From the NCBI GenBank assembly GCA_963921825.1, contig OY997596.1, positions 11,475,001 through 11,539,000 of the forward strand: 64,000 bases of DNA. Direction: 5' to 3'. This document shows positions 4,701 to 64,000 of this stretch, one piece after another; within the stretch, counting starts at the first letter, position 1, and each line of letters begins with the position of its first letter. The DNA is from Erodium maritimum. Its lineage: Eukaryota > Streptophyta > Magnoliopsida > Geraniales > Geraniaceae. The notes under the pieces were generated by a model. That model had not been told where the DNA came from, made no database searches, and saw only the letters and a program-made list of their open reading frames with translations. The position numbers were made by a program, and so were the translations under genes.

Positions 4701-4869
4701 GCAGGCGGTAATCCTGACAGCTCCTCCGGAAAGACCTCCGGGAACTCACATACCACTCTCGGCAGCTCTCTACTCTACACGGTCTCCGTCTCATCTCCCA
4801 CGGTCAATGCTGACAAGAGTACTCCGCTCTTACTGCCCAAGACGCAAGTGACGATCGTGTCACCCGATA

Positions 4870-5301
4870 CTACAGTCACCTATCGTCGATAACAATCGAT
4901 CGACGCCCGGTACCTCGTCATCCAGTCCATCCCCAAGATCACGTCAAATGTCGTCATGTCCAACACAAGAAAATCACCATAAAAAGGGCAATCAGCCACT
5001 CTAATCTCACATGCACGACATACGATACTCAAAACTACCTCTCCGTAACAGGAGTGTCAAGACATAAAGGTCGACTCAACGACTCTACCCTCAACCCCAA
5101 CATACCAGCGAAAGAAGAAGAGATGAAAGAATGTGATGCTCCAGTATCAAATAAGAAAGACGCCCATGAACTGTAAACCAAGCATGTACCCTGAGTAGCC
5201 TCATGGCCGGAGTGACGTCCCTCAGCTCGAGAGTCGGAGACTGCGTACACCCTGCCTTGTGGTGCTTGAGGTCCGCCTCTCGGGGGTGGTGGAAGTGCCA
5301 C
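4870..5301 (-). pseudogene. gypsy aspartic protease, broken
   Basis: The active-site motif FDTGASHSFISSSF is read on minus near 5130, followed by a flap-region remnant and LGMDWMTRY near 4910, the usual protease C-terminal block in this clade. In an active element this enzyme cuts the Gag-Pol polyprotein. A stop and frame change separate the two blocks, and the link to reverse transcriptase is also broken. Confidence 0.8.
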
Positions 5302-6643
5302 CTACTGTGCAACTCGCTGCCTCGGCGCTGGCGCGCTCGCTGCCTGCCGTGGAGCTCTCTGCGCCTGAGTCTGACGCTGTTGGAACTGCGGTGACTGCCC
5401 AATCTGCGACTGCTGTGGTCGCGGAGCCGATCTCTCTCCAAACCGATCGGGGCACGTAGCATCAAAGTGTCCGGGTCGGCCGCACTGATGGCAAAGCGGC
5501 GGCCCGGCACTCGGCCTCCCCTCAGGTCTGCCCGTCGGACGGTCTGCTGGCCCACTGCCCCTCGGACAGTCTCGAGCCATGTGGTCCTGCTGTCCACACT
5601 GAAAGCACGCCCGCTCTATTGGGGCCGGTCCTACGGATGCCACTGATCCGACCTGTCGTGTCCCTCTCAGCTGTGTCTGGGACTAGAACGATCCCGAGGT
5701 CCTCTATCTCCTCGGATCACGGGCCTCAGCTGGCCTCAAGGAGCCGCTCGGTCTCGGCCTGATCTCCCGAGCTCTGGCTGTCTCACGAAAGCGTCGCTCC
5801 ACCGTCAATGTCTGATCCACCAGGTCAGAGTATACTTAGGTCCTCATAACAGCGACCCGATCCGCAATCGCAGAGCGAATCCCTCCCTCAAACCGTCTGC
5901 ATCGGTGAGTCTCAGTCTGTACCATCTCTGAGGCAAAACGGGACAAGGAGGTGAACCTAGCCTCGTACTCGGAGACTATCATACCCTCCTGACGTAGTTT
6001 CAGGAACTGCTGGTGCCTGTCATCCAATACCGACTATGGGAAGTATTGCTCTAGAAATCGTTGTCCAAACAACATTAAGTCATCCCCTACTCGCGCTGCC
6101 ACCAACGGTAGGCGTCTCCCTCCAACTGGAACGCCGCAAAAGATACTCTCATGCCACCATCCAGTATCTCCGACGTGTCCAGGTTGCGGGTCATCTGCTC
6201 CAGCCATCCCTCGACTGCCTCAGGGTCTGGCTCCCCGGAAAAGACGGGTGTGCCCAACCTGCGGAAATCCCTCAACGCCTGAGCAGTGTGGCTGTCGACC
6301 TGGCTAGGTCTCACTGTGGCGGCTGCAGTGGCAGCAGGCACAGTCTCCGGTGCCGGGGCCACAACCTCTCTCTAAGCGAAGGCCGCTGCTAAACCCTGCA
6401 CTGTGCGAGTCAGCTCCTCGTGAGTTGCCGCCTGGGTAGGCTCAGTGACAGGCGGGACCCTGGGAGGGAGTCCCGATGGTCCATCTCAACTCTCTCCTGC
6501 CCCTCGGTTGATGTACCATGGGCGATCGTAGCCCCTACTGACTCAATGACAGGTGGTTGTCCTCGGCCCCCAACTGGCCGGCTCCTGGTGCCTCGTGGAA
6601 CGTATGAAGGCGTCATGTCGTATATCCACTGCACGGATAACAC
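5302..6643 (-). pseudogene. gypsy Gag with two CCHC zinc knuckles, broken
   Basis: The capsid part is read on minus as FSGEPDPEAVEGWLEQM and GDAYRWWQRE (6360-6087), then QEGMIVSEYEARFTSLSRF (6027-5836). The nucleocapsid part (5643-5302) has two zinc knuckles, CFQCGQQDHMARDC and CHQCGRPGHFDATC, in a Gln/Arg/Pro-rich context. The three blocks lie in different frames with stops between, so at least two lesions are present. Gag forms the particle that packages element RNA; this copy could not do so. Confidence 0.85.
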
Positions 6644-7334: not shown

Positions 7335-9970
7335 ACCGGACTCGAGACGTGAACTAAAATAATAAATAAATAAAGTGATTTATAAGAAATAAATTCAGAA
7401 ATAATAATCTGAAAGTAATAAATCTGATACAATGAGTAAACAACTCATAAAACCAACAATAAACGTTCAGTTCAAAAAGAGGGTACGTCTCTAGACCAGA
7501 CTAGCCTAACACCCTTGCTAGCTGCCAGCTCCGAGAATCCCGCTAGACCACATCCCGCTCAAAACCTGTAAAACAATAAGGTAAAGGGGTGAGCTTTTGC
7601 TCAGTAGGAAAAGTAGTTAAGGTTATAAGCATACGCTCACCACCACGAGTAACCGTCCAATTAGGCCATACTAGTACGACACCCAACTAATCACAACACG
7701 GAAATCACTTAACCACAATCCTCAGTCACAAGACTATAACCACAATCAAAAACATACTTACAAGACCACTATCACCCTGTACTCACAACACTTAACCGAT
7801 CAACAAGCATACCATACACAGTAAACAATCACACGTCCCGTACCACAATCCCTGAATTCCGCCGGTTGTACACAGCCTGACTATATCATATCGTACCGGA
7901 ACACTCAACATCGGCCTAGATATCTTCCCAAAACCGCCTCGGGGCACAATCACAACACATCATACCGGACCACACAACATCGGCCTAGATGTATTCACGG
8001 GAATCCGTCGGGGCACAATCACAATACTGATCACGTAAGCGTCGGCCTAGATACTCTACACCGGCATACCCCCTCGATGTAAGTATCGTACCGGAACCAT
8101 ACTTCGGGGGACCGCGCATACGTGGGACCATATCGCCGGCCTAGGTACTACCCTACACCGGCGTACCCCCTCGGTGTAGGTACCATACCGGAATACAACT
8201 CCTCTTAGAACATGCATCATGAAGGTCTCACGCATCACAATGCTATAGTTCAACCACGGTATACTAACCGGGTCAACTTACCACAACACATCACATCGGT
8301 CTATCAATTACCCGATCATATCACAACCAATGGTTCACGTCATATCAAGCATGACACACTTGACCAAACATAACAACAACATACTACACCGAGTAATACC
8401 ATATCATAATTCTCAATCTAACAACGGCTAAATCACACATCATGCATCTCAATCAAAGGTCATGGCATTTCAATCAACACACAACCTAAGGGCTCGACAT
8501 GGCCCGCATACATTTCTACACCACGGCAATCCCAAACTCACGGCTCGACATGGCTCGTAAGCTATCCCTCATTTCACTCGTTCCTCACTTCCTAATCATG
8601 CAATTCTAACGATTAAATCAAGTAATTACAACCGATAGGCATACTAGTAACTTTCCGCAATCAAACCGGTATTCACCACTTTCCCTACCTCAAAAGCAAT
8701 CCAATCCATCAGCAGACGACCTGGCTAGCTTCCTCCTTGTCACTTCACGAGGTCCAAAAGTCACCTCCTCCGTCAAGCTCGGGTCCAAAGTCTTGGATCA
8801 CAATTAAATACTCGAATCAAGAGTAATTCACAAAAGGTTTAAAGAGGAAAACATCCCCAGTTAACCCCAAAAGGACTCGGTTATAGATAACCGTCCCAAT
8901 TACTCGAAATCCAATAAAATGGGCCCAAAAGGCCCAACTCTGGTCTGTCACGGTTCGGGTCACGGACCGGCGGTCTGCACCGTCACGGTTCTCCTCACTG
9001 AGCCGTGACTGGCGCCATCACGGTCTCCCTCACGGAGCCGTGACTTTCTCCGTCACGGTCCCCGTCACAGATCTGTGACGGGTCTGGACAGGTTCGTCCT
9101 TCTTCTTCCTCCAGCTCCGATTTCACGAAAACAACTCGAAAACCTCCATTTTTAACCATCAAAAACCTCAAAAACAGCTCCATAAACGTCAATAACTCAA
9201 TACCCATCATGGGTTTTCATCAAAACTCCATAAATCCAATTAGAAACCATCATCTAACTCCGTTTTCTCTCCAGAAACCATCATCTATCAACAAAAACCC
9301 AAACCTATGAACACCCAACTAGTTCTTAGCATTGTTCGATCAAACCCACTAAGTAGAAATAATCCAAAACGAAAATAGATAGATGATTTACTTTAAGGGT
9401 GGAAAGGAGATGAAGAAAATGTAGTTTGGGAGATGATTTGAGGTCAAAATGGGCAAAAAGCTTCCTCCTTTTCCTTTCTTCTTCTTCAAGCTTCCATGGG
9501 AGCTCCTCTCTCTCCTCCCTTGGTAATTTTGGCCACCACTCTCAAAATGGGCTGAAATGCGACCCAATGTAGCCTTAAAACCTAGGTGAGAGATGTCCAT
9601 AATGCCCTCTTGCTACAAAGCCCCAAATGTCTAAGTTTTAAGGGTAAAAGGGTAATCTTACCCCATTTCTTCTCACCTAAGCCACCATGGACAAGTGTCC
9701 ATGTGGGGACCACTTCTTATTCACCTATCTCATCAACTAATTAATTAAATTCATTAAGACTCGAGGTTTGACCGAAATTGACCCCGGGTTTACTTTTTCA
9801 CAATTACATTCGTTTGAAAGGAAACGACCCGACTAAGCTAACCGTAACGATGTCTAAGCTTTTTGGGCCCCGGAAAGGTCCCGAATGACTCCCGGAGTCA
9901 TCGGTTGACTATTCCGGCAAAAAGTCAACTTTCGTCAAAATTCACCGGTTCGACCGGGGCGGTTCTTACA
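7335..9970 (-). repeat. 5' LTR of the gypsy element (near full length)
   Basis: About 2.64 kb, matching the deleted left LTR at both ends and the 2646-bp solo LTR at 34608-37253 in layout. It includes a degenerate tandem array (7860-8250) and the CCGTCACGG inverted-motif cluster (8945-9090). Its outermost 28 bp on the internal side, including TGTCACGCCC, are missing. Confidence 0.88.
7860..8250. repeat. degenerate tandem array inside the LTR
   Basis: Four to five imperfect units of roughly 70-80 bp, each built from CATACCGGAA, CATCGGCCTAGAT and TCGGGGCACAATCACA. The related solo LTR carries the same kind of array at about 35180-35520. It lies in the part deleted from the left LTR. Confidence 0.7.
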
Positions 9971-11499: not shown

Positions 11500-13760
11500 C
11501 TTCACCCTTTTTATATCATGCCCATAGAAGTTGATAAGAGTCACTTTGTATCAATTGTAGAATGGTTTCAGAAGGTTGAAAGGTATTGTTGAATATGCAT
11601 TCATTCCTACATGGCCAGATCCTCCATAAGACATCCAAGGCTACCATACACAATTTCTTTTTCTTTTTCTTTTTCTTTTTTATCTTTGAGGACCTAAGTG
11701 GTTCCAAGTCAAGATCCACTCCTTAATAGATTCAGGACTAGTAGCTGCAAGTCCCCGCCAATTCAGACATAAGCATCAGATCTTCCAAGAAAAATTGCAG
11801 CCCAATAAAAGATGATCTACTTCTTCAGGTTCTTCATTACACAGAGGGCACCAAATGTCATTAGAATATAACCCTCTAGCCAACAAGAAGAACTTAGTTG
11901 GTATTACTTGCATTCAGACCAGCCAGGTAAAACCAGACCGGAAGAATTATCTAAAGTCTGATACATCTTTCTCACAGAAAAACCTTTGTCATCAATTTTC
12001 CATGAGACTTTATCCTCCCCAAGAGACAAACCAGAAAATTGATTCAACAAATTGTTGATTAATAAAAATTGGGGTAAACTTCATCTCACTACCCTAAAAA
12101 TACTTGCGTTTCGTCTCACTACCATAACCAAACTTTGTTGCACCTCACTACCCTAACCAAACTTTTAGTTGCACTTTACCTGCCTTCAACTTGACATCCA
12201 TTTTTGGAAGGAAAATGATAAAAAGTCCAAAATACCCCTAACTAACACCCAAATTTTCAAAAGCATGCCATTGGTTTCCAAAAATTCTTTTTATTTATTT
12301 ATTTTATATAAATCAGTTTTTTATTTAAAAAATCAGTTTATTCTTAAAAAATCAGACTTTTTTTTTTAAAATTAGTTTTTATTTTCTAAATTAATATTTT
12401 ATTAAAAAAATCAGATTTTATTTTTACAATTTTAGTTTTTATTTAAAAAAATCATATTTTATTTTTCAAAATCAATTTTTTTTTAAAATAGCTTTTATTT
12501 TTAAAAATCAGATTTTATTTTTTTTAAATCAATTATTATTTTTTAAAATCAGATTTTTTTCTTTCAAAAAACAGTTTTTTCTAAAGAAGGGGCGTATTTG
12601 AAAACTTAAAAAAAATGATTTTTTGAAAATAAAATATGATGTTTTAAAATAAATTTTTTTTTTAAAATGATTTTTAAAAATAAAAAAACTAATTTTTAAA
12701 AATAAAAGCTATTTTTTTAAATAAAATTATGTTTTAAAAATAAAATCTGATTTTTCTAAATAAAATTTAGAAAATTAAAATCTGATTTTTAAAATAAAAT
12801 ATTAATTTTTAAAATAAAAAATAATTTTATAAAAAATAAACTGACTTTTAAAAAATAAAAAACTGATTTATATAAAATAAATAAATAAAAAAGAATTTTT
12901 GAAAACCAATGGCATGCTTTTGAAAATTTGAGTATTCGTGAGGGGTATTTTGGACTTTTTACCATTTTCCCTCCAAAAATGGATGTCAAGTTGACGGCGG
13001 GTATGAAAGTACAACTAAAAGTTTCCTTAGGGTACTGAGGTGAAATAAAGTTTGGTTAGGGTAGTGAGACGAAACGCAAGTATTTTTAGGGTAGTGAGGT
13101 GAAGTTTACCCTAAAAATTGACCTTTCTCTCATCTCCTCAAAAATCTTCTGAAGACTAATAGCCAATCCCCTTCAATCCAAAACTGAGACACCAAGGCTT
13201 TTTTCTGAGTACTGAGATGATATAATCTTTGAAATTAAAATTTGAGTGGTGTGCTATTCAATCAAATATCCTCCCAGAATACACTGAATTACCAGAATTC
13301 ACTGACCAATGCAATCCCACAGCTCCAAAGCAATCAGCAAAGTTAGGACTGGATAATAGGGAGTCAATGTGTCTCAAGAAGCTTTGGTCATTCTGCAGAT
13401 TCATTTTATAAAGTTCCCAAGCAGTATAATCCCAACCAAACTTAGCACAAAGGAGTTGTTTCCAAAGAGAGTCTTTTTCCACTGCAAATCTCCACCACCA
13501 TCTAACCAATAGGGCCTTATTCATCACATGTAAATCTCTAATTCCCAGCCCTCCAAATTTCTTTGGTCTGCACACAAGATCCAATCTCACCTTATGAAGC
13601 ACTCTATTTGAAATAGTCCCATTCCAGAGAAATTTTCTTTTCCATTTTTCCATCTCCTTGATGACACCTTTAGGAGCTTTATATAAGGACATGTAGTAGA
13701 GAGGTAGAGAGGACAGAGAAGATTTAATGAGAGTTAATCTTCCCCCAAAAGATATGTATT
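11500..13760 (-). pseudogene. LINE ORF2 C-terminal half (RT end, zf-RVT), broken
   Basis: Minus-strand translation gives YISFGGRLTLIKSSLSSLP and KWKRKFLWNG (13760-13600), then KFGGLGIRDLHVMNKALLV, the usual end of plant L1 reverse transcriptase. Beyond the foldback insertion the zf-RVT region continues: VSWKIDDKGFSVRKMY, DIWCPLCNEEPEEVDHLLLGC with its Cys/His pattern, and WRIWPCRNECIFNN. An A-rich run (plus-strand ctttttcttt repeats near 11665) and stops break the frame. Normally this part supports target-primed reverse transcription. Confidence 0.85.
12072..13111. mobile_element. Mutator-like foldback MITE with very long inverted repeats
   Basis: A 1040-bp element that is almost one palindrome. 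The left end GGGTAAACTTCATCTCACTA and the right end (reverse complement GGGTAAACTTCACCTCACTA) begin arms that match well for more than 250 bp and continue as AT-rich complementary sequence to the centre. It is flanked by a perfect 9-bp target duplication, taaaaattg, at 12063-12071 and 13112-13120. A 9-bp duplication with long terminal inverted repeats is typical of Mutator-like elements. It has no transposase gene. It lies inside LINE ORF2, so it is younger than the LINE. Confidence 0.92.
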
Positions 13761-13774
13761 TGCCTTGCTATAGA

Positions 13775-15873
13775 CCCACCATGCGAATAGAACCATAGAT
13801 CGAGATAGATCACACTCGATGGGTCCCTAGTCAACAAAACTTCACTAGAAGCGACTAGTATGAAAGATGACTCTTTATGGCTTACGTTATGTTAGTCATA
13901 GAAATGGGATTCTGTAGTCTGATCACAGATATCATGTGGGACATGATATTGGACGACCCGACATGAATATGTTCCATAGATCAAGTCATGAACATATTCA
14001 TTGTCGTAGCTTGTCATGTATCCTTAGACCAAGGAGTCTTTGTGATCGCTATGCAGTAAACAACTGAGTTTCACCTGAGCCTAACGTTGTTCATAACATG
14101 GCTTCCATAACGACCAGGATTGGCTTGGGGACGGACTGCATGAGTGACACGAAAGACGGCTAAGGGATTTATCCCTCATACTGCGGTATAGGAAATATAT
14201 TGGTTCTCGACCGCTTGATCGAGAGTGACTGAAAGAATAGCATGGCCATGCACATGATATTGGGTATCATATATTCAGTCATCTCACATATCAAGGAACA
14301 ATGATTGAGAATAATAAGGATGACGGCTCTATGCCTTATCTCAATCAGGATATCGGAGATAAAAGGATAATGACAGGGACGACGGAAATTTTAGAATCGA
14401 TAGGGTCGATTCGTTATGCAGTGTCAGGCAATACTAAAGTCTCGTTAGATGCTACTTAAATAGGATCAAGTAAAATGAGATTTTACGTTGATCTATTGAC
14501 ATGCATAAACCTAAGGGTCACACCAAGGGATGAAACTCATTAACACATTTATGGAGAATGGCCAAAAGGGAGTTGTCCCGAGACATGACCAAAACTGGGT
14601 TTTGGGTCATGTGCCCGTAAGTGAATAGGACTTTACGGATCGAGACAAGACTTGGAGTCTTGGATTGATCACGTCGGATAATGTTGGACATTTCCGGTAT
14701 GGAAGGCTTGGAGGCGATGAGCACATCACGAGCAAGGTACTAAAAGTCGTCAGGCGCTAGTCGGGCGGCTAGGTCCTCCGCGGATTAATCGGGGACTAGA
14801 CGGGGATTAATCGGATTTGAATTTTTTTATTTTTAATAAATATATTATTGTACATATAAATAAAATATGATTTTCATTATATTAAAAATGGTAACAAATG
14901 TTTAAAATACCTAAAAAATAACACCAAACATCTCAGAAGCACAATTCCTAATATCACTAACACCAAACAACTCTACATAACCATCTAATTATTTTAATTG
15001 AGTTAGTATACTACACAAAATTGTTGTAATCCCTAGGCGGCTAGGCGGGTCGGCTAGGCGTAGGCAGACGCCTAGGCAGAGCCTAGTCGGGATTTTTAGA
15101 ACACTCACGGGACCTCGTTGGGAATGGCCACGGGCCATGTTCTAAGAGGCCCATGCAACCAAGATCCATAGAAATATTTAATCAAGGTCTTGATTAATTA
15201 GCACTAAGCATGGAAGACATAGATTAAAGTGTTGGTGATTCATCACCTAACCACATCATGTCCACCCATACTTAGCACCATACTTGTCCTATTTACACCA
15301 TGCTTCTCTACACCTTGTCTTACATATTTTGTTTATTATATTGACGGGATTATTTGTCATCTTATTCAATATAACAAACCAAGAAAAGAATAGAAACAAC
15401 TCCAACTTCTTCATCTTCTCTCTCAAGGTTTCTCTCCATTCTTGGTGTTCTTGAGTTCTCTTCACAAGAACTATGTGGCTTTGATTCCCGGGGTGGATAC
15501 GTAGGCGTCTTGGAGACTCAAGCCGATCATCTTTTCTTGGTGTTCTTGAACGAATAGAGAAGAAAAGGTGCAGAATTTTCTACACTGTTTTCTGTCCGAC
15601 CAGCCACCTTCATGAGCTCGATCAGAGGTTCATCCAAGGTCCGATGAAGCTGATTTTTGTAGTGAATGTTATCCACATATAGTTCTTCAAAGTGAACGGT
15701 GGAATTTGTATTTTGATGGTTCGTTATTCTGATACACGAGCTGCAAGTTGGGTCACTTCATTTATTTCATTTTGTTTTGTGAATGTAATCGTGGTAGTTT
15801 TTCTTTGCATGGTCTCGGGTTTTATTTGCTTCCGCTGCGAGTATGCATTCATACCCTCCATCGAGACCCAACA
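13775..15873 (+). repeat. copia 5' LTR, 5'-truncated and carrying a MITE
   Basis: Homologous to 19246-21094 from the shared ATGCGAATAGAACCATAGAT onward. It lacks about the first 125 bp, including the TGTTA terminus, and contains an extra 371-bp hAT-type insertion (14733-15103). It ends CGAGACCCAACA at 15873, directly before the primer-binding site. Confidence 0.9.
14733..15103. mobile_element. hAT-type MITE in the copia LTR
   Basis: Absent from the other two LTR copies, so it is a later insertion. The left end is CAAGGTACTAAAAGTCGTCA and the right end (reverse complement) starts TGTTCTAAAAATCCCGACTA, imperfect inverted repeats of the CAAGGTTCTAAAA kind seen in plant hAT MITEs. Flanks atcacgag (14725-14732) and ctcacggg (15104-15111) agree at 6 of 8 positions, fitting an aged 8-bp duplication. 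The centre is AT-rich and non-coding. Confidence 0.75.
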
Positions 15874-19245: not shown

Positions 19246-21094
19246 TGTTATTCTTAGTGCCTGTAGTTCAATCCTAAATGTCTAAATGTATATATCATCG
19301 TTAGCAATAAAATTAAAGCGGCTTTATATTACTTATGTATTGGAGTAATATATCGATGCGTGCTCTGATCTATGCCGACCATGCGAATAGAACCATAGAT
19401 CGAGATAGATCACATTCGATGGGTCCTTAGTCAACAAAGCTTCACTAGAAGCGACTAGTATGAAAGATGACTCTTTATGACTTACGTTCTGTTAGTCATT
19501 GGAATGGAATTTCGTAGTCTGATCATAGATATCATGTGGGACATGATATTGGACGACTCGACATGAATATGTGTCATAGATCAAGTCATGAACATATTCA
19601 TTGTCGTAGCTTGTCATGTATCCTTAGACAAAGGAGTTTTTGTGATCGCTATGCAGTAAACAACTGAGTTTGACATGAGCCTAACGTTGTCCGTAACAGG
19701 GCTTCTATAACAGCCAGAATTGTCTTGGGGACGGACTGCATGAGTGACACGAAAGACGGCTAAGGGATTTATCCTTCATACTGCGGTATAGGAAATATAT
19801 TGGTTCTCGGCCGCTTGATCAAGAGTAATTGAAAGAATAGCATGGCCATGCACATGATATTGGGTATCATATATTCAATCATCTCACATATCAAGGAACA
19901 GTGATTGAGAATAATAAGGATGACGGCTCTATGCCTTATCTCAATCAGGATATCGGAGATAAAAGGATAATGATAGGGACGACGGAAAGGTTAGAATCGA
20001 TAGGGCCGATTCGTTATGCAGTGTTAGGAAATACTAAAGTCTCGTTAGATGCCACTTAAATAGGATCAAGTAAAATGATATTTTACGTTGATCTATTGAC
20101 ATGCATAAACCTAAGGGTCACACCAGAAGATGAAACTCATTAACACATTTATGGAGAATGGCCAAAAGGGAGTTGTCTCGGGACATAACCAAAACTGGGT
20201 TTTGGGTCATGTGCCCGTAAGTGAATAGGACTTTACGGATCGAGACAAGGCTTGGAGTCTTGGATTGATCACGTCGGATAATGTTGGACATTTCCGGTAT
20301 GGAAGGCTTGGAGGCGATGATCACGTCACGGGACCTCGTTGGGAATGGCCACGGGTCATGTTGTAAGAGGTCCATGCAACCAAGGCCCATGGAAATAATT
20401 AATCAAGGTCTTGATTAATTAGCACTAAGTATGGAAGACATGGATAAAAGTGTTGGTGATTCATCACCTAACCACATCATGTCCACCCATACTTAGCACC
20501 ATACTTGTCCTATTTACACCATGCTTCTCTACACCTTGTCTTATATATTTTGTTTATTATATTGATCGGATTATTTGTCATCTTATTCAATATAACGAAC
20601 CAAGACAAGAATAGAAACAACTCCAATTTCTTCATCTTCTCTCTCAAGGTTTCTCTCCATTCTTGGTGTTCTTGAGTTCTCTTCACAAGAACTACGTGGC
20701 TTTGATTCCCGGGGTGGATACGTAGGTGTCTTGGAGACTCAAGCCGATCATCGTTTCTTGGTGTTCTTGAACGAATAGAGAAGAAAAGGTGCAGAATTTT
20801 ATGCACTATTTTCTGTCCGACCAGCCACCTACATGAGCTCGATCAGAGGTTCATCCAAGGTCCGATGAAGCTGATGTTTTGAGTGAATGTTCTCCACATA
20901 CAGTTCTTCAAATTGAACGGTGGATTTTTGATTTTGACGGTTTGTTATTCTGATACACGAGCTGCAAGTTGAGTCACTTCATTTATTTCATTTTGTTTTG
21001 TGAATCTAATCGTGGTAGTTTTTCCTTGCATGGTCTCGGGTTTTATTTGCTTCCGTTGCGAGTATGCGTTCATACCCTCCATCGGGACCCAACA
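19246..21094 (+). repeat. copia 3' LTR
   Basis: Begins TGTTATTCTTAGTGCCTG and ends CGGGACCCAACA. It is 1849 bp and has no internal insertion, so it shows the intact layout of this LTR family. LINE sequence resumes at once. Confidence 0.93.
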
Positions 21095-47524: not shown

Positions 47525-49195
47525 TGTTAGTCTTAGTCCCCGTAGTTCAATCCTAAATGTCCAAATATATATATCATCATTAGCAATAAGATTAAAGCGA
47601 CTTTATATTACTTATGTGTTGGAGTAATGTATCGATGTGTGCTCTGATCTATGCCCACAATGCGAATAGAACCATAGATCGAGATAGATCACACTCGATG
47701 GGTCCCTAGTCAACAAAGCTTCACTAGATGCGACTAGTATGAAAGATGGCTCTTTATGGCTTACGTTCTGTTAGTCATTGGAACGAGATTCCGGATTTTG
47801 ATCATAGATATCATGTGGGACATGATATTGGATGACCCACCCTGAATATTTTCCATAGATTAAGTCATGAACATATTCAGTGTCGTAGCTTGTCATGTAT
47901 CCTTAGACCAAGGAGTCTTTGTGATCGCTATGTAGTCAACAACTGAGTTTGACATGAGTCTAACGTTGTCCGTAACAGGGCTTCCATAACGACCAGGATT
48001 TGCTTAGGGACGGGCTACATGAGTGACACGAAAGACGGCTAAGGGATTTATCCCTCATACTGAGGTGTGGGAAAGATATCGGTTCTCGGCCACTTGATCG
48101 AGAGTGACTGAAAGAATAGCATGGCCATGCACATGATACTAGTATCACTTATTCAATCATCTCACATATCAAGGAACAATGATTGAGAATAATAAGGATG
48201 GCGGCTCTATGCCTTATCTCAATCAAGATATCAGAGATAAAAGGATAGTGACATAGACGACGAAAAGTTTAGAATCGACAGGGTCGATTCGTTATGCAGT
48301 GTTAGGAAATACTAAAGTCTCGTTAGTTGCCACTTAAATATGATCAAGTAAAATGGGATTTTACGTTGATCTATTGACATGCATAAACCTAAAGGTCACA
48401 CCGGAGGGTGAAACTCGTTGACACATTTATGGAGAATGGCCAAAAGGGAGTTGTCTCGGGACATGACCAAAACTGGGTTTTGGGTCATGTGCCCGTAAGT
48501 GAATAGGACTTTACGGATCGAGACAAGGCTTAGAGTCTTGGGATTGATCGTGTCGGATAATGTTGGACATTTCGGGTATGGAAGGCTTGGAGGCGATGAG
48601 CGAATCTCAGGACCTCGTTGGAAATGGCCACGAGCCATGTTCCAAGAGACTCATGAAAGACCCATGGAACTAATTAATCAAGTCTTGATTAATTAGTACT
48701 AAGTAAGCAAGACAAGGATTAAGGTGTTGGTGATTCACCACCTAACCCAATCTTGTCTTGCCATACCTTGTCCTATTTACACCTTACTTGACACCATACT
48801 TGTCCCATGCCTTTAGTTGGACAAGTATGGGGTTTTTTATGTTTAAGTCATCTTTTTTCAACATAACAAACACAAGACAAGAATAGGAAACACAACTTCT
48901 CTCCCCCTTCCCTTGCAATTCCGGGTTTGGCAAGCTCCCACCTCCATGTTTGTGTTCTTGAGTCCTCAAAGAGAAGAACTACGTGGCTTTGATTCCCATG
49001 TGGATACGTATGCGTCTTGGAGACTCAAGCCAATCATTCGTTACCCGGTGTTCTTGTTTAGGTAAGAAATAATGCTGAATTTTTCTCTTGTGAATCCATT
49101 CTTTGTTAGTTGTTTCATGGTTTTAATCGTCTCTTGGTTTTCATTGATTTTCCGCTGCGAGTTGGTTCATCTCCAACCTACCTCGAGACCCAACA
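47525..49195 (+). repeat. solo LTR of the copia family
   Basis: 1671 bp, TGTTAGTCTTAGTCCCCGTA to CTCGAGACCCAACA, homologous to the copia LTRs at 13775-15873 and 19246-21094. A perfect 5-bp duplication acacc lies at 47520-47524 and 49196-49200. No interior remains. Confidence 0.95.
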
Positions 49196-55992: not shown

Positions 55993-56434
55993 GTTTTATG
56001 TCGTACTTTTTATGTAAATATTGGGCCAGTAATTCATGTGTACATTGATTAGGACGTAAATAATACATATATAAATGGGTTTGGAACTGAAATTGGAGGG
56101 TAGAGCCAGGCCCAAATAGCTCCTATCATCTCTAGCTCTATAACCTGTAAACGATGTGGGACTCCTGAAATGCTGCAGAGCAAAATCAAGTTGCGAGTTG
56201 CAACAGAGACGAAAAATGAAGCTGAGACAGAGGTGCACAATCCCTGTGTTTCATTACAGAACTAAAATACCATGTCAATGGTGTTGAACAAAACCTTAAT
56301 CATGAAACTAGTAATTAGAATACACATTTATCAACAAAATCCCCAACTTTGAATGTTACTATTGTATTGCTGATAAAACAAATCATACTAGCTTTCGATA
56401 TTACATTAACAAATTACAGAGAAAATAAAAACAT
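55993..56434. other. 3' flank of the F-box gene
   Basis: No supported gene. A GTCCCACATCG motif, read on minus near 56155, is like the promoter motif in the solo LTR at 23687-24627, so part of this stretch may be old LTR sequence. Confidence 0.4.
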
Positions 56435-57127
56435 CTAAGATCTCCCCATCAAGATGTTACAAAACATCTCGACTTCACGATCAAATCTGCAGCAGCACAT
56501 AGTATCTTCAAGTTCCCAACCTTGCTTTCTTCCATAACAAGGGCAAGTTTTTGCATCTTTATGTAACGATGCAGCCACAATCAATGGATTGTTGATCCAC
56601 ATTCCCCAAACAAAGACCTTTACTTTGTCTCGGCAACTTCTGAATCCCTTAATGGAAGACAAAACCTCGATTCCTCGCGCCCCTTCCTCACCTCCGCGGC
56701 ACATCAAGATGATCCCATAAACATAATGCGCTTCCACGTGCCCCTTCTCAGCAGCCCTCCTCAAGTTTTCGAGTCCCGACTCCAATTTCACGTGGCTGAA
56801 GAACTCGATCATGCCTTGTTTGTACAAGGTATCAGGATTGCCACTTTCTTTCCACCGTCTCAGTAGAGTCGCTTTATCAATCTTGCTCTTGCTCCAGAGG
56901 ATTCCGGTGAACTTCTCCATAGACAAGTGCTCGAGAACGTAGTCATCGTTGGATGCTCCGTCAAGTTCCTTGCAACTTAGCCTTACGTTGGCGAGGTCGG
57001 TAACGGAGGCAGAGCCAACTCGTGCTACAACTTCAATCAACAAGTCCGATGGAAGGGATTTGATGGTGGGTTTGTGGAGGGTTTTGGCTCTTCTCGTTAC
57101 CTTCAAAGCTCTTTTCGGAAAAGCCAT
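56435..57127 (-). CDS. F-box protein of the At2g35280-like group
   Basis: A single uninterrupted exon of 230 residues, starting at ATG 57127 in good context (ACATGGC). Residues about 22-60 form an F-box (SLPSDLLIEVVARVGSASVT, DLANVRLSCKELD), which binds Skp1/ASK in SCF ubiquitin ligases. A Sel1-like helical segment follows (GNPDTLYKQGMIEFF, LENLRRAAEKGHVEAHYVYG), then a Cys-rich C-terminus (CPCYGRKQG, MCCCRFDREVEMF). Length and domain order match the plant F-box family typified by At2g35280. The target protein is unknown. There is no sign of decay, although retroposons lie on both sides. Confidence 0.92.
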   Translation of the reverse strand: MAFPKRALKVTRRAKTLHKPTIKSLPSDLLIEVVARVGSASVTDLANVRLSCKELDGASNDDYVLEHLSMEKFTGILWSKSKIDKATLLRRWKESGNPDTLYKQGMIEFFSHVKLESGLENLRRAAEKGHVEAHYVYGIILMCRGGEEGARGIEVLSSIKGFRSCRDKVKVFVWGMWINNPLIVAASLHKDAKTCPCYGRKQGWELEDTMCCCRFDREVEMFCNILMGRS

Positions 57128-57193
57128 GTTCTAACTCTTGAAAAACCTGAAGAGATTTAGAATAGAATAGAAACAACAATGGCTAATGTTTGT

Positions 57194-57240
57194 TTTTATA
57201 GAAGCTTATGTTTCCGAAACTAAGTAGCTTTATTTATATC
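57194..57240 (-). promoter_or_regulatory. TATA boxes upstream of the F-box gene
   Basis: On minus, TATAAAAA (57194-57201) lies 67 bp before the ATG and GATATAAATA (57231-57240) lies 104 bp before it. Either would give a leader of about 40-75 nt. Confidence 0.5.
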
Positions 57241-57339
57241 TTCCTCTTCCGTGCGGTTTAGGAAATATGTATAAGCTTTCCTATTTTAAATAGGAAATAT
57301 GTACAACTGAGTCTGAGAGTCTGAGAGTGGATTAACTAA

Positions 57340-58075
57340 TTGATCTTGTTTGATGCCTCTTCCACATTCAGTAGCAAAGCCACATACCATGTAGTCCAAA
57401 CCCGGTTCAGGAAACCCCGAATAGAAATAGGGGAGATGTTATGAGGGGTCTCGGGGTACAGATGGAGTCTATGTAGATCAAGGAGATCGTCGGTTCTCCA
57501 TTGAAAGTTGGAGGACAAGGACCGAATTTTACGTTCGCCTTGGAAGTAAAGGTGCTCACATATGCAGCAGCGGGGGGCAGTATGCACTCTTGCCTCACGG
57601 AATGAGTCCGAAGTGGTCTAGAGGGGGTTTGGCCGGTTGCATCGCCTCTCTAGACGTAAGATGGTTGCGGTACCACCAAGAACCGACAAGGCACTCTCCT
57701 ACCAGCTCAGAGGTCAGCAATCCCGCGTTTTGGAGCCCTACCATTATCATTCAAGTGAGGACGACGCGCGCTGACAACCTGGGGGACTACTATGTCCACC
57801 ACTTTTCGTTAACGGTAAGGGGTCTGCTCTGGCATAGCTTCCGCTAGTCTGGATTAGTTGTATCGGTGTCGATAGACGCTACCGTACCTTCCAGACGCCT
57901 TCAAGAGGTAGTCGATGACTTTAGCGATTTAGTTTTCTGCCTGAGTATCCCCCATTGCGGGATCTCTTTTCTTTTATGTTATTTATTTTCTCGTGTTTTA
58001 TCATTTTTCTGCTTTGTAAACACTCGCTACTCATATTATTTATAATACGGTTAATACCAATCGTTCATTCTCAAA
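57340..58075 (+). mobile_element. LINE-derived 3' fragment
   Basis: Shares blocks with 63170-63757 and with the minus-strand end of 59990-62473: GGGGCAGNATGCACNCTNGC, CTACCAG...GGTCAGCAATCCCGCGTT and GTGAGGACGACGCGCGCTGA-like sequence. It ends CGTTCATTCTCAAAATAAAA. The 5' edge is not fixed. Confidence 0.65.
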
Positions 58076-58423
58076 ATAAAACATTTTTTGTTACTTACTA
58101 ATTATACCTTCTTAAATTTGATAATTTCTTAATTATGTGCTTCCGAATTTGTTTAATTTCTTAATAGGATCCCTCCTTATGTCTTTTATAATGTAAATGT
58201 TTAATTACCTTTAGTACCTTTTGTATTGGTAACGTGTCTTTGAATTTTTATGTTTAAAAATGCTTGATAAAAGTTTTTAGATTTCTAGTATCTGTCTTTC
58301 TGTTTACGAAACAAAAGGCTACTAACAGTATATAAAATAATATACACTTCATACATACATTCAAGTTACTTTTACCAGTTGAAAGACAATTTTATTCTTT
58401 TTCTTAATGATTCTTTAATTTTA
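58076..58423. other. AT-rich spacer, no gene seen
   Basis: Unique-looking AT-rich sequence leading to the target site of the next retroposon. Confidence 0.5.
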
Positions 58424-58438
58424 TCACTAATTCCTCAA

Positions 58439-59957
58439 AAAAAAAATTATCAGCAATTTTTTTTATAAAAACCAAACAGTTACAAAGTGTAGCTGAAGAT
58501 CAAGGGCAAGCCCTCAGTGAACCTTACAAACAAACAAGAGGCAACGCCTCAAACCGAAACCCAACAAGGGTTTCAAACAACTTCAACGGTCTTAGAACCC
58601 GACTTACAATTCAACAACCTGAAACAAACCACTACAAACGGGCCAAGCCCAACAAACCTAACACGGGCCAAGCCCAACCAAATACCTAAACCCACACAAG
58701 GGCAAACAGTGATGGCAACAAAGCCCATCACAGGCAACGAGGCCCAAACTGACAGAAACCCTAAAACAGAAAAGAAAAAAAAAACAAAAGTACTGCCCAA
58801 CCTCGAGCCCCGCGCAAACCAGACGCCGAGCCGAAACAGCTCCGGTCCACCTTCCAACACCAAGCTCCGATCAACTCTGGTCACCACCGGCCGGACACCA
58901 AGACGAAGTCAAGAGAGAAAAGAGAAGCAGAACAGCACCGAGCCAACACCCCAAAGAGCAACGGAGAACCTCCCAATCCCAAAGATTCACCCCAAAACAC
59001 GCCCGGATCCAAAGTTCCTGCAATAGTGAGATTCCAACCTTCCTCCACACAATACATCAACCAATAACCCTCACCTAGTCGAATCAGTTCAATACCCCCA
59101 ACTCCGAACTCTTAATACTCCCAATAGCCGTTAGGCACAACCCAACAATGGCCAACACCAAAGGTTGGGCCTCATCCACAGAAACCAAAGACGAGGGAGG
59201 GGAGTAAGTAAAAGTGGAAGCGGAAAAAAGCCCGATTTGAGCAAAGGAAAGGGAAGAAAGTGAGCCAGATCTGTCACTATCAGATTTCCTAGAGATCCCG
59301 ATAGTGGCCTACACCAACCGACGACTCAAGGGGAGAGATCAAGTCCAAAAAGGACAAGGAAAACACATCTGTTCTAGAAGGAGTACAAATGGAGAAAGGA
59401 AGATTAAAATCTCATACCAAGGATCTTGACGCGAAGGGGTGAAAGCAAGTCGTTCCAGCAAAAGCAGATCTGACTGCCTGAAGAAGTAGACCTCACCCAC
59501 AGCTCTGAAACCACCTCAACAAGGCCTAACTGACCCAAACCCCTCGCTGCTCCGACGAGGCCCGGACACCCCCGGGGAACAGATGAGGAAAAGAAGCAGA
59601 TCTGGAGCAAGGAGACCACTGCGAGAAAACCAAACCCGGAGAAGACGAGAAACGAAACAAAGACCGGACCCAAAACTGGCCATCAACCCAGGGGGAGAAG
59701 ATCGACCCACACAGCTCGGAACCGGCGCCGTCGAAGAAGGAAAAATGCCACAGAAACAGAGGGGGAGGCAAAAGAAACAAGGAAAAAGGCCGGGCAGCAC
59801 GGAGTACCACCGGTGACTTTCATGGCTACTGCCATGAAGGTCACCGGTGGCGACAACGGGGGGAAGAAGGGGGTGAACTAGGGTTTGGAGACGAAGAGTC
59901 TAGAGAGAGGGGAGACTCTCTCTCTAGACACTGCAAGAGTTAGAGACGAATCTAGTT
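58439..59957 (-). mobile_element. non-coding LINE-like retroposon, 1.5 kb
   Basis: Perfect 15-bp duplication tcactaattcctcaa at 58424-58438 and 59958-59972. On minus it starts with a CTAGAGAGAGAGTCTCCCC leader and ends ATAAAAAAAATTGCTGATAA plus a T-run. The 5' part is GC-rich with open frames but no domain I recognise. Confidence 0.88.
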
Positions 59958-59989
59958 TCACTAATTCCTCAATGATTTAATTATTTCTT

Positions 59990-62473
59990 TTCTTTTTTTG
60001 AAAAGTACTGGAAATATTATTAAAACATTATGGTGTTCGCAAACTTGCTACCACCAAATAACCCAGGGAACTACAATAATATTGAAAAACAAGAACCGAA
60101 ATGTAAATTTTGCTCTTAGACATAGGGGGGATTACGGTAGCATCCAGAGACACTGGTACAACATACTCCAACCAAAAAAGCATTGCTCGAGCAGACCAAG
60201 TGAAGATTTTGTAGTGGTGGACCGATAAATCCCCCGGGAAATAAGCGTGTGTCGTCCTCCCTTGACTGATACTGGTAGGGCTCCCAAACGCGGGTGTGCT
60301 GACCCCGAACTGGTAGGGGAGAATCATGTCGACTATTGGTGGAACCGTCGCCTCCATACGTCCAGAGAGGTGGTGCAGTCGACCGACCTCTCCCTGGACC
60401 CCTAGGGACTCATTCTTGGAGGCGGGGGTGCCTATGGCCCCCCGTCGCTACTGTGTATGACGCCCCATCGGATGTCGTCAAACCCTCTGACTCCTCAGGC
60501 TCCCCGTCTCTCTCTAGTCGTTTCTTCCCAGATATTGATGTGATAGGCTCCCTAGGAAGCCATCCAGTCGGGACATCCTCTTGACAGTCCTCATGACCCC
60601 TATGCCCCCCTTTCTCTTGGCTCTGCTGAGGCGTCGCTGGCTTAGAGGATCTAGCCGCCACTCCAGAGGCCCCTCTCAGATATGCCCAGTTTTTCCCCGC
60701 GGTAGCCTTCCCATGTTTAGCCTTTTCCAAGGCTAATCTCGGATCCGTCAGGGCTCTCAACGACAGTCCTCGAACACCCCCAGCAACCGGGAAAGCCGGA
60801 AATAGATGTCCCGCACAACCGCAGCCAAAACAATGGTCCGGAAGGTATTCATATGACACAAGAAGGAGAGTACGTATCTGCGGTTCCGATAGACGGAACC
60901 AAATTTGACTATGCAATGGTGCCTGGATATCAGCTCTAATCCTGATCTTCATAAAGTCTCCCCAACAGAGACCCGTCCTATCCACATCTACCGCTTGGCA
61001 GACACCCAGAGTGTTCCCCACTCAGAAGCCCACATCCTTATTCCATGCTCCCACCGGCAGATTAGACACCCTAGCCCAGACTATGAAGTGATGAAAATTG
61101 AGATACCCTGCTTGCATCTGAGCTCTCAGATCTGTGAACAACACCAAGGAATCCCAGAATGCCCACGGTTCTCCTAGAAGAACCCTCGATCTCTCCTTAG
61201 CCGTCCTAAAGAAGAGCGTTACCAAACCCCCTTCCAGAGGTTTCGCCTCTACCTTCATACCCCACAGGTCCTCCATCCGAGCCACCAGGGACTTCCAGAA
61301 GAGTTTCCTTGATGTCAACACCTTAGCGGCCAGAGCAAACTGATATTAGGACCCTCGGCCAGAGACTACCATCAACGGAACTACCACCTCCTTAATGCGC
61401 ATCGAGGACAATCTCGACCCCAAGTCCCCAACCTGCTCCCTAGGTCCTCGAGATTCGCTTCCCAACTGATCCCGATCCCCAATCGGGTCTAACCCAAGCA
61501 TCGGACCCAGCCCACCAGGTGTACCCGGCCGAATCGGGTACGACCCAAGCGGGTTGTCCGGCCCAAGCGGGTTTGCCCACGTGTGAGGGACCTGATCTCG
61601 CCCTACCCCGGGTCCGTACCTGACGGCCCATTACGCCACATCATCCGGCCCACCCCGGGTCCACCCCACTGTACTTGTGGGCTGATCCCAGCGACTCGGC
61701 CTCATTCCAGCCCGGGGCTGCCAGTCCGGCCCAGTCTGCCAGCCCGACCAAGTCTACCAGGCCCGACGGGCATCCGCGAGCAGCCCACGGCCCAGCCCCG
61801 TGTCTCCATGGTCCCGGCCCGACCCACGTTCAGAAACCCTAGCAGGTTCGCGCGCCACCTTCTTCCCCTTTCTTCGCCGCCACGCCAGCGCCTCCGGTGA
61901 CTCCTCCGACGTTGAAACCGCATTTAACGAAATCACAATCGGAAGGAGACCATCCCCCTCCTGGATAGTGTCCTCCGTGTCCTCCACCTCATTTCCCGGA
62001 GGCAATGTCCAGCTGAACCCCGCCCCGATCCCCCTTGACCGGGTCGGCGTCTCCCGTCCGACCTTTGGACACGGTCCCAACGCATACGTGCATCGAACAA
62101 CACCCCGCGACGCCGCATGGAATCGTCCCGTCCCCATTGACGGTCATCCTTCCTCCCCGATCCTCTGTGCCGAAAACTTCATCGGTGCCTCCTGCTCACT
62201 CTACGGCGTCAAGCCTTCTGCCGACGTGAACGAACCCTCGACAGAGCCGGCTGGCAGCGACACGTTCCCGTCCGCCACCACCTCCACCCCCAATCTCGGA
62301 CTACTCGGCTCTCTGAATAGCTCGGGGTCGAAACTTGCTTCCCCTCCATCCAAATCTCCAGTTGATGTCATCGGTTCGCCGTGGAAGAGAGAATAAATGA
62401 GGAAAATCGCAAAATCCAAATCCTAGTTCGGCTAAAGAGGCTGCGCATTTTTTTTGCGGCCTTGATTTTCAAG
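59990..62473 (-). mobile_element. ORF1-only LINE derivative (DUF4283/zinc-knuckle type)
   Basis: Perfect 17-bp duplication tgatttaattatttctt at 59973-59989 and 62474-62490. On minus the leader and ORF1 (about 62400-60410) are followed at once by a 3' end, with a stem-loop (TGGTG/CACCA enclosing GCAA/TTGC, 60031-60056) and the tail TACTTTTCAAAAAAAG. ORF2 is absent. The intact duplication shows that it moved in this form or was trimmed without disturbing its ends. Its 3' part matches 57340-58075 and 63170-63757. Confidence 0.9.
60410..62419 (-). pseudogene. LINE ORF1 with DUF4283 and degenerate zinc knuckle, frameshifted
   Basis: The N-terminal piece begins MTSTGDLDGGEASFDPELF (62385) and continues in shifted frames (SLNAVSTSEESPEALAWRRR, 61990). 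The DUF4283 domain is clear at 61321-61022: FWKSLVARMEDLWGMKVEAK, RSRVLLGEPWAFWDSLVLF, NFHHFIVWARVSNLPVGAW. Next comes the basic region and a zinc knuckle, CFGCGCAGHLFPAF, in which the last ligand of CX2CX4HX4C is Phe. A Gly/Ser/Pro-rich tail ends at 60410. Such ORF1 proteins bind LINE RNA. Several stops and shifts separate the pieces. Confidence 0.82.
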
Positions 62474-62553
62474 TGATTTAATTATTTCTTAATAATATCA
62501 TTAATTTTTTAATAAATTATCATTATTATTTAATTACATATTGTCTCCTTCAT

Positions 62554-63757
62554 ATGTGAAGTCGGTTAAATCATCAAAAGTGACTCCAAGCAGCGGTTAG
62601 GGCTTGGGTGTAGCCGTCGCAGTAGCCGTACTTGCTGGGTGATTAATTACCATTGGTATTGATCAATCATTGTGGCTTCACGGGGAGAGTGGTGTTGCTG
62701 CATGGGCAAAGGCGTGGTGCTAGTGCGGATTGAATTGTTTGCACAGTTTAGGGATTTGATTATGGAGGAGGTTATGACCGGCGACAAAAGGAAGGGCCAA
62801 TGGTTCTTGTTCGCAGACGGTGGTGGACACGTAGCAATGGGATCGAGGGTTTGCGATTTGACCTCGGGAGTTCAACAAAGGGCTACGAGACTGGTGCTAC
62901 TGGGTCATGACGGTAGCGCTAGAATGAGAACGGCGACGACTAGGGTTTCAATTTTATGTTGCCGCCAAGTCTGTGTATAGGGATTCCGATGGCGTCTCTG
63001 TCTCCGGCTTACTGAGGTGCGCCTGACCGGTTCTAGGCGGTTCTATGGCCGTAACAACTGTAACAGTGGCGGTGGACAACGTGGAGGCAGCGGGTATAGT
63101 CGGCCGATGCTATCTGTTGTTCGTCTGACTGAAAAGGGGACAGGTATCGTATGGGCCTGGTCCTCAGTCAGCGACATGATGTACCTGTCTGCTGTAAGCG
63201 CTCGGACGTTCAATGGTCTGTCGCTCATCCTGAGCATTGACTTGGAGGGGCCTACGGGGTCCAATGGATTAATACTTCAACCGGCGAGGGGCAGAATGCA
63301 CCCTCGCCTCGATCAATGAGGACTTCGTGGTCTAGGGAGGGGTTGGTCGGTTGTACCACCTTCCTGGCTGATAGATGGCGATGGTTCCATCACCAGCCGA
63401 CAAGATTCTCCCCTACCAGTCCGGGGTCAGCAATCCCGCGTTCAGGAGCCCTACACGTATCACTCAAGGGAGGACGACGCACGCTGACTTATCGGGGGAG
63501 ATGTCAGTCCACCACTATTAATCTTTCACTTGTTTGGCTCGACTAGTGCCATTTGGTAGAAGTATGTTGTATCGGTATCTCAGGATGCTACCACAGATGT
63601 CCCCTTCAACCGCCCCTATGTCCAGAGCAAATTTTATTTTCATGTTATTGCTTTATGTTAGCTTCTTGATTTATGACATGTAAGATGAGTATAATTATGT
63701 GCTCATCGACCTACTTTATATTTCAGTAATAATAGTATCTGTTCTTCTCAAAAAAAA
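62554..63757 (+). mobile_element. LINE-derived retroposon, 1.2 kb
   Basis: Flanked by tctccttcat at 62544-62553 and 63758-63767. A stem-loop (GATGAG/CTCATC, 63684-63707) precedes CTGTTCTTCTCAAAAAAAA. From about 63170 it matches the 3' ends of 57340-58075 and 59990-62473. The 5' half has a plus-strand frame (62672-62980) without a known domain. Confidence 0.8.
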
Positions 63758-63767
63758 TCTCCTTCAT

Positions 63768-64000
63768 TGTTTTTTTTATTAAAATAATGTATTTACCTTA
63801 ATTAATTTTCTTTAATCATCTATTAATCAGTCTAAGATTTGTTTTTTAAAATCAAACAACAACGATTTGAAAATTTCAAAACAAAATAAAATTCCATATC
63901 AACTTTTAAACGATTTTATAATAACTTTTACTGATTTCATTTTCAATATGAAAATCAAACAACTACTAAATTAATACCAATTATGAATATAAGACGGTAA
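63768..64000. other. AT-rich end of the window, no gene seen
   Basis: AT-rich sequence with no supported feature. Confidence 0.5.

Follow-up and report, generated by a model that had tools for sequence, protein, structure and literature searches.

Described relatives and the E. maritimum element

HAL1 (half-L1) of mammals is a non-autonomous derivative of L1, a long interspersed nuclear element (LINE), that encodes only the protein of the first open reading frame (ORF1p) and that has several origins (PMC5753468). An ORF1-only LINE-like element of the plant Erodium maritimum is compared with it below. The element is at 59990-62473, on the minus strand, of a 64,000-nucleotide stretch of assembly GCA_963921825.1 (contig OY997596.1, positions 11,475,001 to 11,539,000), which is referred to as the window and whose own numbering is used. 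The plant family to which it belongs is real, large and HAL1-like, with a structured 3′ module: ORF1 is present without ORF2, multiple copies have a single junction and the duplications that flank them are independent. The likeness to HAL1 is that of a LINE-type element encoding ORF1p without ORF2. The differences are the plant host, an ORF1 of the DUF4283/zf-CCHC_4 kind and a structured 3′ module in common with ORF1-less elements; for the plant family no full-length parent was found, in a search of low power. The family is therefore HAL1-like in its working, yet it is not HAL1, as its ORF1 is of the DUF4283 type and not of the mammalian L1 type.

Three other systems are relevant. Celine of poplar, a plant L1-clade LINE, has a DUF4283 ORF1, short poly(A) and target-site duplications averaging 15 bp, and its full-length example is 6.1 kb with an ORF2 (endonuclease and reverse transcriptase) and a 189-bp 3′ untranslated region (3′ UTR) (PMC11288735). 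The half-LINE likewise has a DUF4283 ORF1 and a short A-tail, and the mean length of the 13 exact repeats chosen here is again 15 bp, but its structured 3′ UTR is ~420 nt and it is without ORF2, so that the endonuclease and reverse transcriptase by which a plant L1-clade LINE is recognized were not found in it. Maize ZmSINE2/3 and the tobacco TS SINE are short interspersed nuclear elements (SINEs) that form pairs with LINEs of stringent 3′-end recognition, and the 3′ end shared by the maize pair is folded, with compensatory changes (PMC3747384). The half-LINE resembles these cases in being non-autonomous with a 3′ end in common with other retroelements; however, those SINEs share ~45-100 nt with a known LINE, whereas here ~500 nt are shared among ORF1-coding and ORF1-less elements. 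Finally, SpIREs (spliced integrated L1s) are described as dead on arrival (PMC5860796). They too are internally shortened LINE copies with one common junction, but the half-LINE ORF1 shows selection on internal branches and its lineages are diverse. An ORF1-only LINE family of plants was not found in the literature searched, which was mostly open-access and, for broad queries, limited to the top results.

The reading favored here, with a probability of roughly 0.7, is that of a large ORF1-only LINE family in a plant that other LINEs mobilize in trans, with the structured module as the candidate for recruitment. HAL1 is the known precedent for LINEs reduced to ORF1. A large plant counterpart would mean that this outcome recurs and is not peculiar to mammals, and one would then have to ask which selective force maintains ORF1p where the element is unable to copy itself.

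A family of independent insertions

On its own strand the window copy consists of 27 private nt, a leader of ~75 nt, ORF1 (from an ATG at 62371 to a TGA stop at 60412-60410), a 3′ UTR of ~420 nt and a tail. It is flanked by the target-site duplication TGATTTAATTATTTCTT, identical at 17/17 positions as originally claimed (coordinates of this and other features are in Table 1). The 3′ end is CTTTTCAAAAAAAGAA and the tail, which reads CAAAAAAAGAA, is therefore short. The 27 extra nt (62447-62473, minus strand) are possibly added sequence or reflect an upstream transcription start.

The window's own genome, of 763 Mb in 40 contigs, was searched with the element for copies having the same junction of ORF1 to 3′ end, as the original prediction had proposed, and the best 40 of 3,987 candidate places were scored. 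Thirteen of these, window copy included, align with nearly the whole element in one piece (query ≤103 to ≥2445), the 12 others with 73-85% identity to the window element, while the remaining 27 align partly, being truncated, interrupted or with a diverged 5′ end. The copies have a common 3′ end, TTTAATAATATTTCCATTTCTTCTCAAAAAAA and variants of it, for which a pattern allowing ≤2 mismatches occurs 194 times in the genome and its reversed control not at all, and the copy alignment reveals a fixed common 5′ end as well. With the same architecture in multiple genome copies, a private post-insertion deletion is ruled out as the origin of the window element, and the prediction of a plant half-LINE stands, the junction being shared by multiple copies and not unique to this locus.

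Independent duplications had been named as the other mark of a family. In each of the 32 copies whose ends are defined, the upstream flank was compared with the downstream one and their best match scored, with 992 mismatched pairs as control. Scores of at least 13 were obtained by 11/32 copies and 4/992 control pairs, which excludes chance for the set of duplications; the corresponding numbers for scores of at least 11 are 13/32 and 16/992. Thirteen hand-picked exact repeats, two of them from other module-bearing elements, have a mean length of 15 bp and are 82% A+T, and such AT-rich repeats of ~15 bp fit target-primed insertion of the L1 type.

Maintenance of ORF1 as protein

A DUF4283/zinc-knuckle ORF1 had been predicted. 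The DUF4283 part held, with a match at E = 3e-8 in the window frame 61022-61345, but the zinc knuckle match (frame 60410-61021) is weak, its E of 0.009 being under the cut-off. In copy L029, where a stretch of 268 codons is open, the values are 3e-12 for DUF4283 and 4e-5 for zf-CCHC_4, the latter under the curated cut-off. Stops interrupt ORF1 in the window copy, which is consequently dead.

Tests for selection covered the 268-codon part of ORF1 in 36 copies. The first, second and third codon positions have pairwise divergences of 0.150, 0.104 and 0.340, respectively, and by parsimony the third positions account for 65% of the changes on internal branches (402/618) and 43% of those on terminal branches (608/1,408). 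The median pairwise ratio of nonsynonymous to synonymous divergence (dN/dS) is 0.136 for 621 of the 630 pairs, the other 9 not being computable. This combination indicates that the source elements retained the protein and that copies decayed afterwards; ORF1 has been maintained under purifying selection in the source elements, and the proposal that it is the part kept was right. When 25 copies are taken in 150-nt blocks, the initial 300 nt have weak codon periodicity and most of the following ORF1 blocks a clear one; none is left in the pair of blocks that cover the stop and what comes next (phases 0.149, 0.158, 0.142 and 0.128, 0.121, 0.116). In the final block, where gaps are frequent and a C-tract is present, the phases are uneven (0.217, 0.241, 0.172).

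When the genome was searched with the ORF1 protein and the best 143 of 13,151 candidates were scored, 142 were at 64-82% identity and the remaining one was the query. Frames of at least 600 amino acids without a stop in the match are present in 8 of the 143, and are a sign of recent activity. Distances between copies in ORF1 and in the module are correlated (r = 0.69 for 29 copies, a value reached in 0/1000 permutations), and so both parts have been inherited jointly.

Low dN/dS together with decaying copies is also the pattern of processed pseudogenes of a conserved gene, and the family could have arisen by retrocopying of a host gene, or of a few, that had domesticated a LINE ORF1, the selection having acted on the gene. 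The numerous diverged lineages, with all but the query among the scored places at 64-82% identity, the third-position share of changes on internal branches, the fixed common 5′ and 3′ ends and the occurrence of the same 3′ module on elements in which no ORF1 was detected make this origin highly improbable.

The junction and the search for ORF2

The remaining ORF1 passes directly into the module and 3′ end at 32/40 fetched places. A motif scan for LINE reverse transcriptase in the window and in L009-L048 gave a single isolated match, GCPLSP in L027, which is inside an insertion and beside a stop and is taken as chance; the window itself had none, in agreement with what had been claimed for it. 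Within 2-kb flanks such a scan would not reach deep into an ORF2. No ORF2 was seen by eye after the partial copies L023, L034, L035, L036, L043, L045 and L047, some of which are interrupted by other sequence.

The pairing of ORF1 with the module extends to the genome at large. With ≤2 mismatches allowed, the genome has 3,834 matches to a 30-nt motif of the module (reversed control 0) and 4,884 to a motif from the ORF1 tail, ahead of the module (reversed control 2). The 42 fetched module places, a sample in which relatives of the window copy are over-represented, have 39 matches to the first motif and 38 to the second, and thus modules lacking an ORF1 tail do not appear to be in excess. Thirty of the 100 exact ORF1 tails among those listed on C1 have an exact module 158-167 nt away, the figure for the fetched sample being 7/23. 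Below 47.14 Mb of C1, 6/10 ORF1 relatives have an exact ORF1 tail at 127-136 nt. For the 13 relatives below 58.33 Mb, the exact module motif is 289-294 nt away in 4, and among the matches listed an exact module at 1-9 kb is present in 0/13. At least 8 of the 143 ORF1 places have a 3′ end at 545-621 nt, with 100 of the 194 3′ ends listed.

LINEs bearing ORF2 are abundant in this genome: a search with zf-RVT yielded 12,902 candidates, and the best 150, which were scored, are all above the cut-off. In a comparison by eye of zf-RVT places and exact modules on the part of C1 below 58.33 Mb, 0/10 were within 10 kb, among the matches listed. In sum, neither this ORF1 nor the module was seen with an ORF2 next to it, in a search of low power. 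The original prediction also had ORF2 lost from a full-length ancestor, which may be so; a full-length relative with this ORF1 was not seen in the same low-power search.

The abundance of LINE ORF2 domains speaks for the possibility that full-length LINEs with this ORF1 undergo repeated loss of ORF2 at a single favored junction, through splicing or template jumping, in which case selection would have acted in the full-length elements and the short copies would be mostly dead on arrival like human SpIREs. The existence of SpIREs, with one splice junction in many copies (PMC5860796), lends substance to such recurrent derivation, as does the one ORF1 place among the 143 whose 3′ end, among the 100 of 194 listed, is 3,657 nt away, a spacing that could be due to an insertion or an ORF2 remnant. 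Recurrent derivation is nevertheless unlikely given the direct passage of ORF1 into module and 3′ end at most fetched places, the 7 partial places without an ORF2 following and the C1 relatives, which have a nearby exact tail or module in the proportions given above and none at 1-9 kb.

A structured module starting at the ORF1 stop codon

The original prediction had a stem-loop and tail at the 3′ end. The tail is there, though short, and ‘stem-loop’ is an understatement since a region of ~188 nt, starting at the ORF1 stop codon, is structured. The 3′ UTR of the window element is common to 31 other half-LINE copies and five other elements. In the alignment of 37 sequences the module core, 188 nt in most and 165-189 nt overall, opens with GAATGA in most of them. 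A covariance model matches the window module with 218 bits, the window copy being part of the training set, and, run on the 312,672 fetched bases, detects 43 modules, of which 6 are outside that set.

Helices P1, P2 and P3 taken together have 92.3% of cells paired, as against 31-52% when slid, and their covariation score was reached by 0/500 shuffles. Individually, 95.3% of cells are paired for P2, whose score was reached by 14/500 shuffles, and 94.9% for P3, which has both-side changes at two pairs. As the 5′ strand of P2 is within the loop of P1, the two would make an H-type pseudoknot 10 nt past the stop codon. P4 and P5 have 92.8% of cells paired and a joint covariation score reached by 0/500 shuffles, with both-side changes in P4 only. 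The helices of the module thus covary in a manner compatible with a pseudoknot, single helices being moderately supported, and compensatory changes of the sort known from a shared 3′ end are present, to a moderate extent per helix. The long-range partner that RNAalifold preferred for P1 is unsupported, its covariation score having been reached by 245/500 shuffles.

The ratio of nonsynonymous to synonymous differences (pN/pS) in the module core is 1.07, 0.61 and 0.94 in the three frames. A coding explanation for the conserved 3′ region, with an ORF from the AUGA overlap, was dismissed as the ratio in that frame is 0.94. There is no plausible Rfam match in 56400-64000, where three matches have E values of 0.17-0.88 and are far under the gathering scores, and an exact module 22-mer has 0 matches in viral_contigs and 0 in genome_contigs, neither of which is a plant collection. 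In L041 a tandem pair of module cores is present in one element (3605-3793 and 3822-3970, plus strand), the second incomplete.

A stop codon, an overlapping AUG and a pseudoknot from 10 nt downstream are also what might be expected if autonomous relatives held the module between ORF1 and ORF2, with the pseudoknot coupling ORF2 translation and the half-LINE a truncated or prematurely polyadenylated form. Such an arrangement is very unlikely, as the half-LINE has its own conserved 3′ end and A-tail ~240 nt past the core, and no ORF2 was seen downstream at the fetched places.

Other elements with the module and its possible function

Five further module copies are outside half-LINEs: window 62554-63757, window 57521-58081, L047b, L033b and L010b. 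The two in the window, like the sharing of a structured 3′ module, go beyond the original prediction. The first of these elements is only 53 bp from the duplication of the half-LINE, and in its 5′ part, as in that of the 1.3-kb L047b, ORF1 similarity was not detected. L047b has exact 15-bp flanking repeats. The element at 57521-58081 is a different internal deletion of ORF1, its ORF1 part being recognized by tblastn at E = 3e-8, and L033b has an ORF1 fragment ahead of the module (tblastn E = 2e-5). No flanking repeat was found for L010b or for window 57521-58081, and only a short, imperfect one for L033b. Since this search ran without a shuffled control and also gave a chance-looking 9-mer for L033b, the 10-bp repeat of the 62554 element is to be seen as suggestive and the 15-bp repeat of L047b as stronger. 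What the half-LINEs and these elements share, whether ORF1 is full, shortened or undetected, is thus the module with the last ORF1 codons. In L033 the stretch 4548-5800 (plus strand, 1.25 kb) has the common 5′ end, part of the N-terminal half of ORF1 and the module, with no DUF4283 match seen.

Being common to elements in which ORF1 is full, shortened or undetectable, the module is the best candidate for a recruitment signal. Its retention where ORF1 is gone favors module recognition, though it may serve translation or stability. If the latter were its only function, LINEs would recognize just the A-tail (the relaxed type) and the structure would act on the ORF1 mRNA, in its translation, stability or export. 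Recognition of poly(A) is presumed for most plant L1-clade LINEs (PMC3747384), and the start of the module right at the ORF1 stop, with its AUGA overlap, would suit an element that controls translation. Two elements without detected ORF1, window 62554-63757 and L047b with their exact repeats of 10 and 15 bp, do however retain the module, and the A-tail is just ~7 nt, so that recognition of the tail alone seems the less probable option, though one that deserves to be taken seriously. With the shared structured module it becomes testable whether poly(A) is all that plant L1-clade LINEs recognize or whether some of them require a particular RNA structure.

The chances appear evenly balanced that the ORF1-only lineage is an independent, diversified superfamily with its own structured cis-acting module, which would then define a second tier of parasites. 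Such a superfamily would have thousands of copies, with ORF1 at ~65% amino-acid identity yet under purifying selection, and in its second tier elements whose ORF1 is shortened or replaced would still be transposed. The sharing of the module with even shorter elements suggests how such parasites borrow the machinery of another element.

Probable mobilization in trans

What has been found is probably a long-lived, HAL1-like plant family mobilized in trans through its structured 3′ module, where both the partner and the mechanism are what we infer. The half-LINE would spread as a unit of ~2.4-2.5 kb comprising the 5′ leader, ORF1, the structured 3′ module and a short A-tail. Its transcripts would be translated into ORF1p, as the selection on ORF1 implies, and ORF1p, to judge from its domains, probably coats its own RNA. 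The duplications, the tail, the lack of reverse transcriptase and the abundance of zf-RVT candidates in the genome suggest that the endonuclease/reverse transcriptase of a full-length LINE in the same genome would prime at nicked AT-rich sites and copy the half-LINE RNA in trans. The feature recognized by LINE ORF2p may be the module after the ORF1 stop, or the short A-tail.

Several observations weigh against mobilization in trans through the module, or lessen what supports it. No partner LINE was recognized in the sequence read, which stopped short of what follows the ORF1 relatives at 64-71% identity. For the 143 ORF1 places, the 12 kb downstream contain none of the 150 scored zf-RVT places; with this ORF1 in all LINEs, the expected number would still be only ~1.7 (143 × 150 / 12,902, by our own arithmetic). 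One ORF1 place has its 3′ end, among those listed, 3,657 nt away, for which an insertion or an ORF2 remnant could account. Flanking duplications with a score of at least 11 are lacking in 19/32 copies, which is expected for old or truncated copies but still is a limit, and the 10-bp repeat of the 62554 element is short and without a control of its own. With regard to the module, P1 alone has 94.5% of cells paired in its 9-pair core but a covariation score reached by 36/500 shuffles, no both-side change was found in P5, and the tool that counts covariation warns that related sequences may exceed shuffles without structure. The pN/pS of 0.61 in one frame of the module also needs to be kept in mind.

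From a practical perspective the shared module also provides a marker: the DUF4283 frames annotated in plants may in part be half-LINEs and not remnants of full LINEs.

Features of the window

Table 1. Positions of the half-LINE, its parts and the other module-bearing elements within the window
Feature	Position	Strand	Remarks
Target-site duplication, 17 bp, element's 3′ side	59973-59989	.	Exact match to 62474-62490
Short A-rich 3′ tail (TCAAAAAAAGAA)	59990-60001	-	
3′ UTR, ~420 nt	59990-60409	-	Coding signal near-absent after stop; none in module core
Structured 3′ module core, 188 nt	60228-60415	-	Starts GAATGA, including ORF1 stop codon
Helices P4 (60315-60322 with 60228-60235) and P5 (60298-60303 with 60241-60246)	60228-60322	-	Both mismatched in window copy
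Helix P2 (60376-60383 with 60328-60335)	60328-60383	-	5′ strand inside P1 loop
Helix P3, hairpin (60351-60356 with 60337-60342)	60337-60356	-	One mismatch in window copy
Helix P1 (60389-60399 with 60360-60370)	60360-60399	-	Starts 10 nt past stop; innermost pair mismatched in window copy
ORF1 stop, TGA	60410-60412	-	Overlaps an ATG (AATGAG); TGA invariant in 37/37 rows
ORF1, ~650 codons	60410-62371	-	DUF4283 and zf-CCHC_4; broken in window copy
5′ leader, short	62372-62446	-	Begins at family-wide 5′ end GCGCAGCC; from copy alignment
27 extra nt	62447-62473	-	Separate duplication from family-wide 5′ end; absent from other aligned copies
Target-site duplication, 17 bp, element's 5′ side	62474-62490	.	
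Second non-autonomous element, 1.2 kb	62554-63757	+	Module core 63314-63501; exact 10-bp repeats 62544-62553 and 63758-63767
Third module copy	57521-58081	+	Core 57600-57788; ORF1 fragment (start of DUF4283) directly in front

Two half-LINEs among the fetched places, L043 and L035 (minus strand), are cut off after the last aligned base by similar sequences starting (T)GTCACGCCCC, and these interrupting sequences are probably one unrelated repeat family. Elsewhere in the window a stretch of ~1.05 kb, 12069-13114, matches its own reverse complement at 80% and is a large imperfect palindrome. Dispersed repeats with 72-95% identity are at 13775-15873, 19246-21094 and 47525-49083, and also at 603-1833 with 8749-9970.

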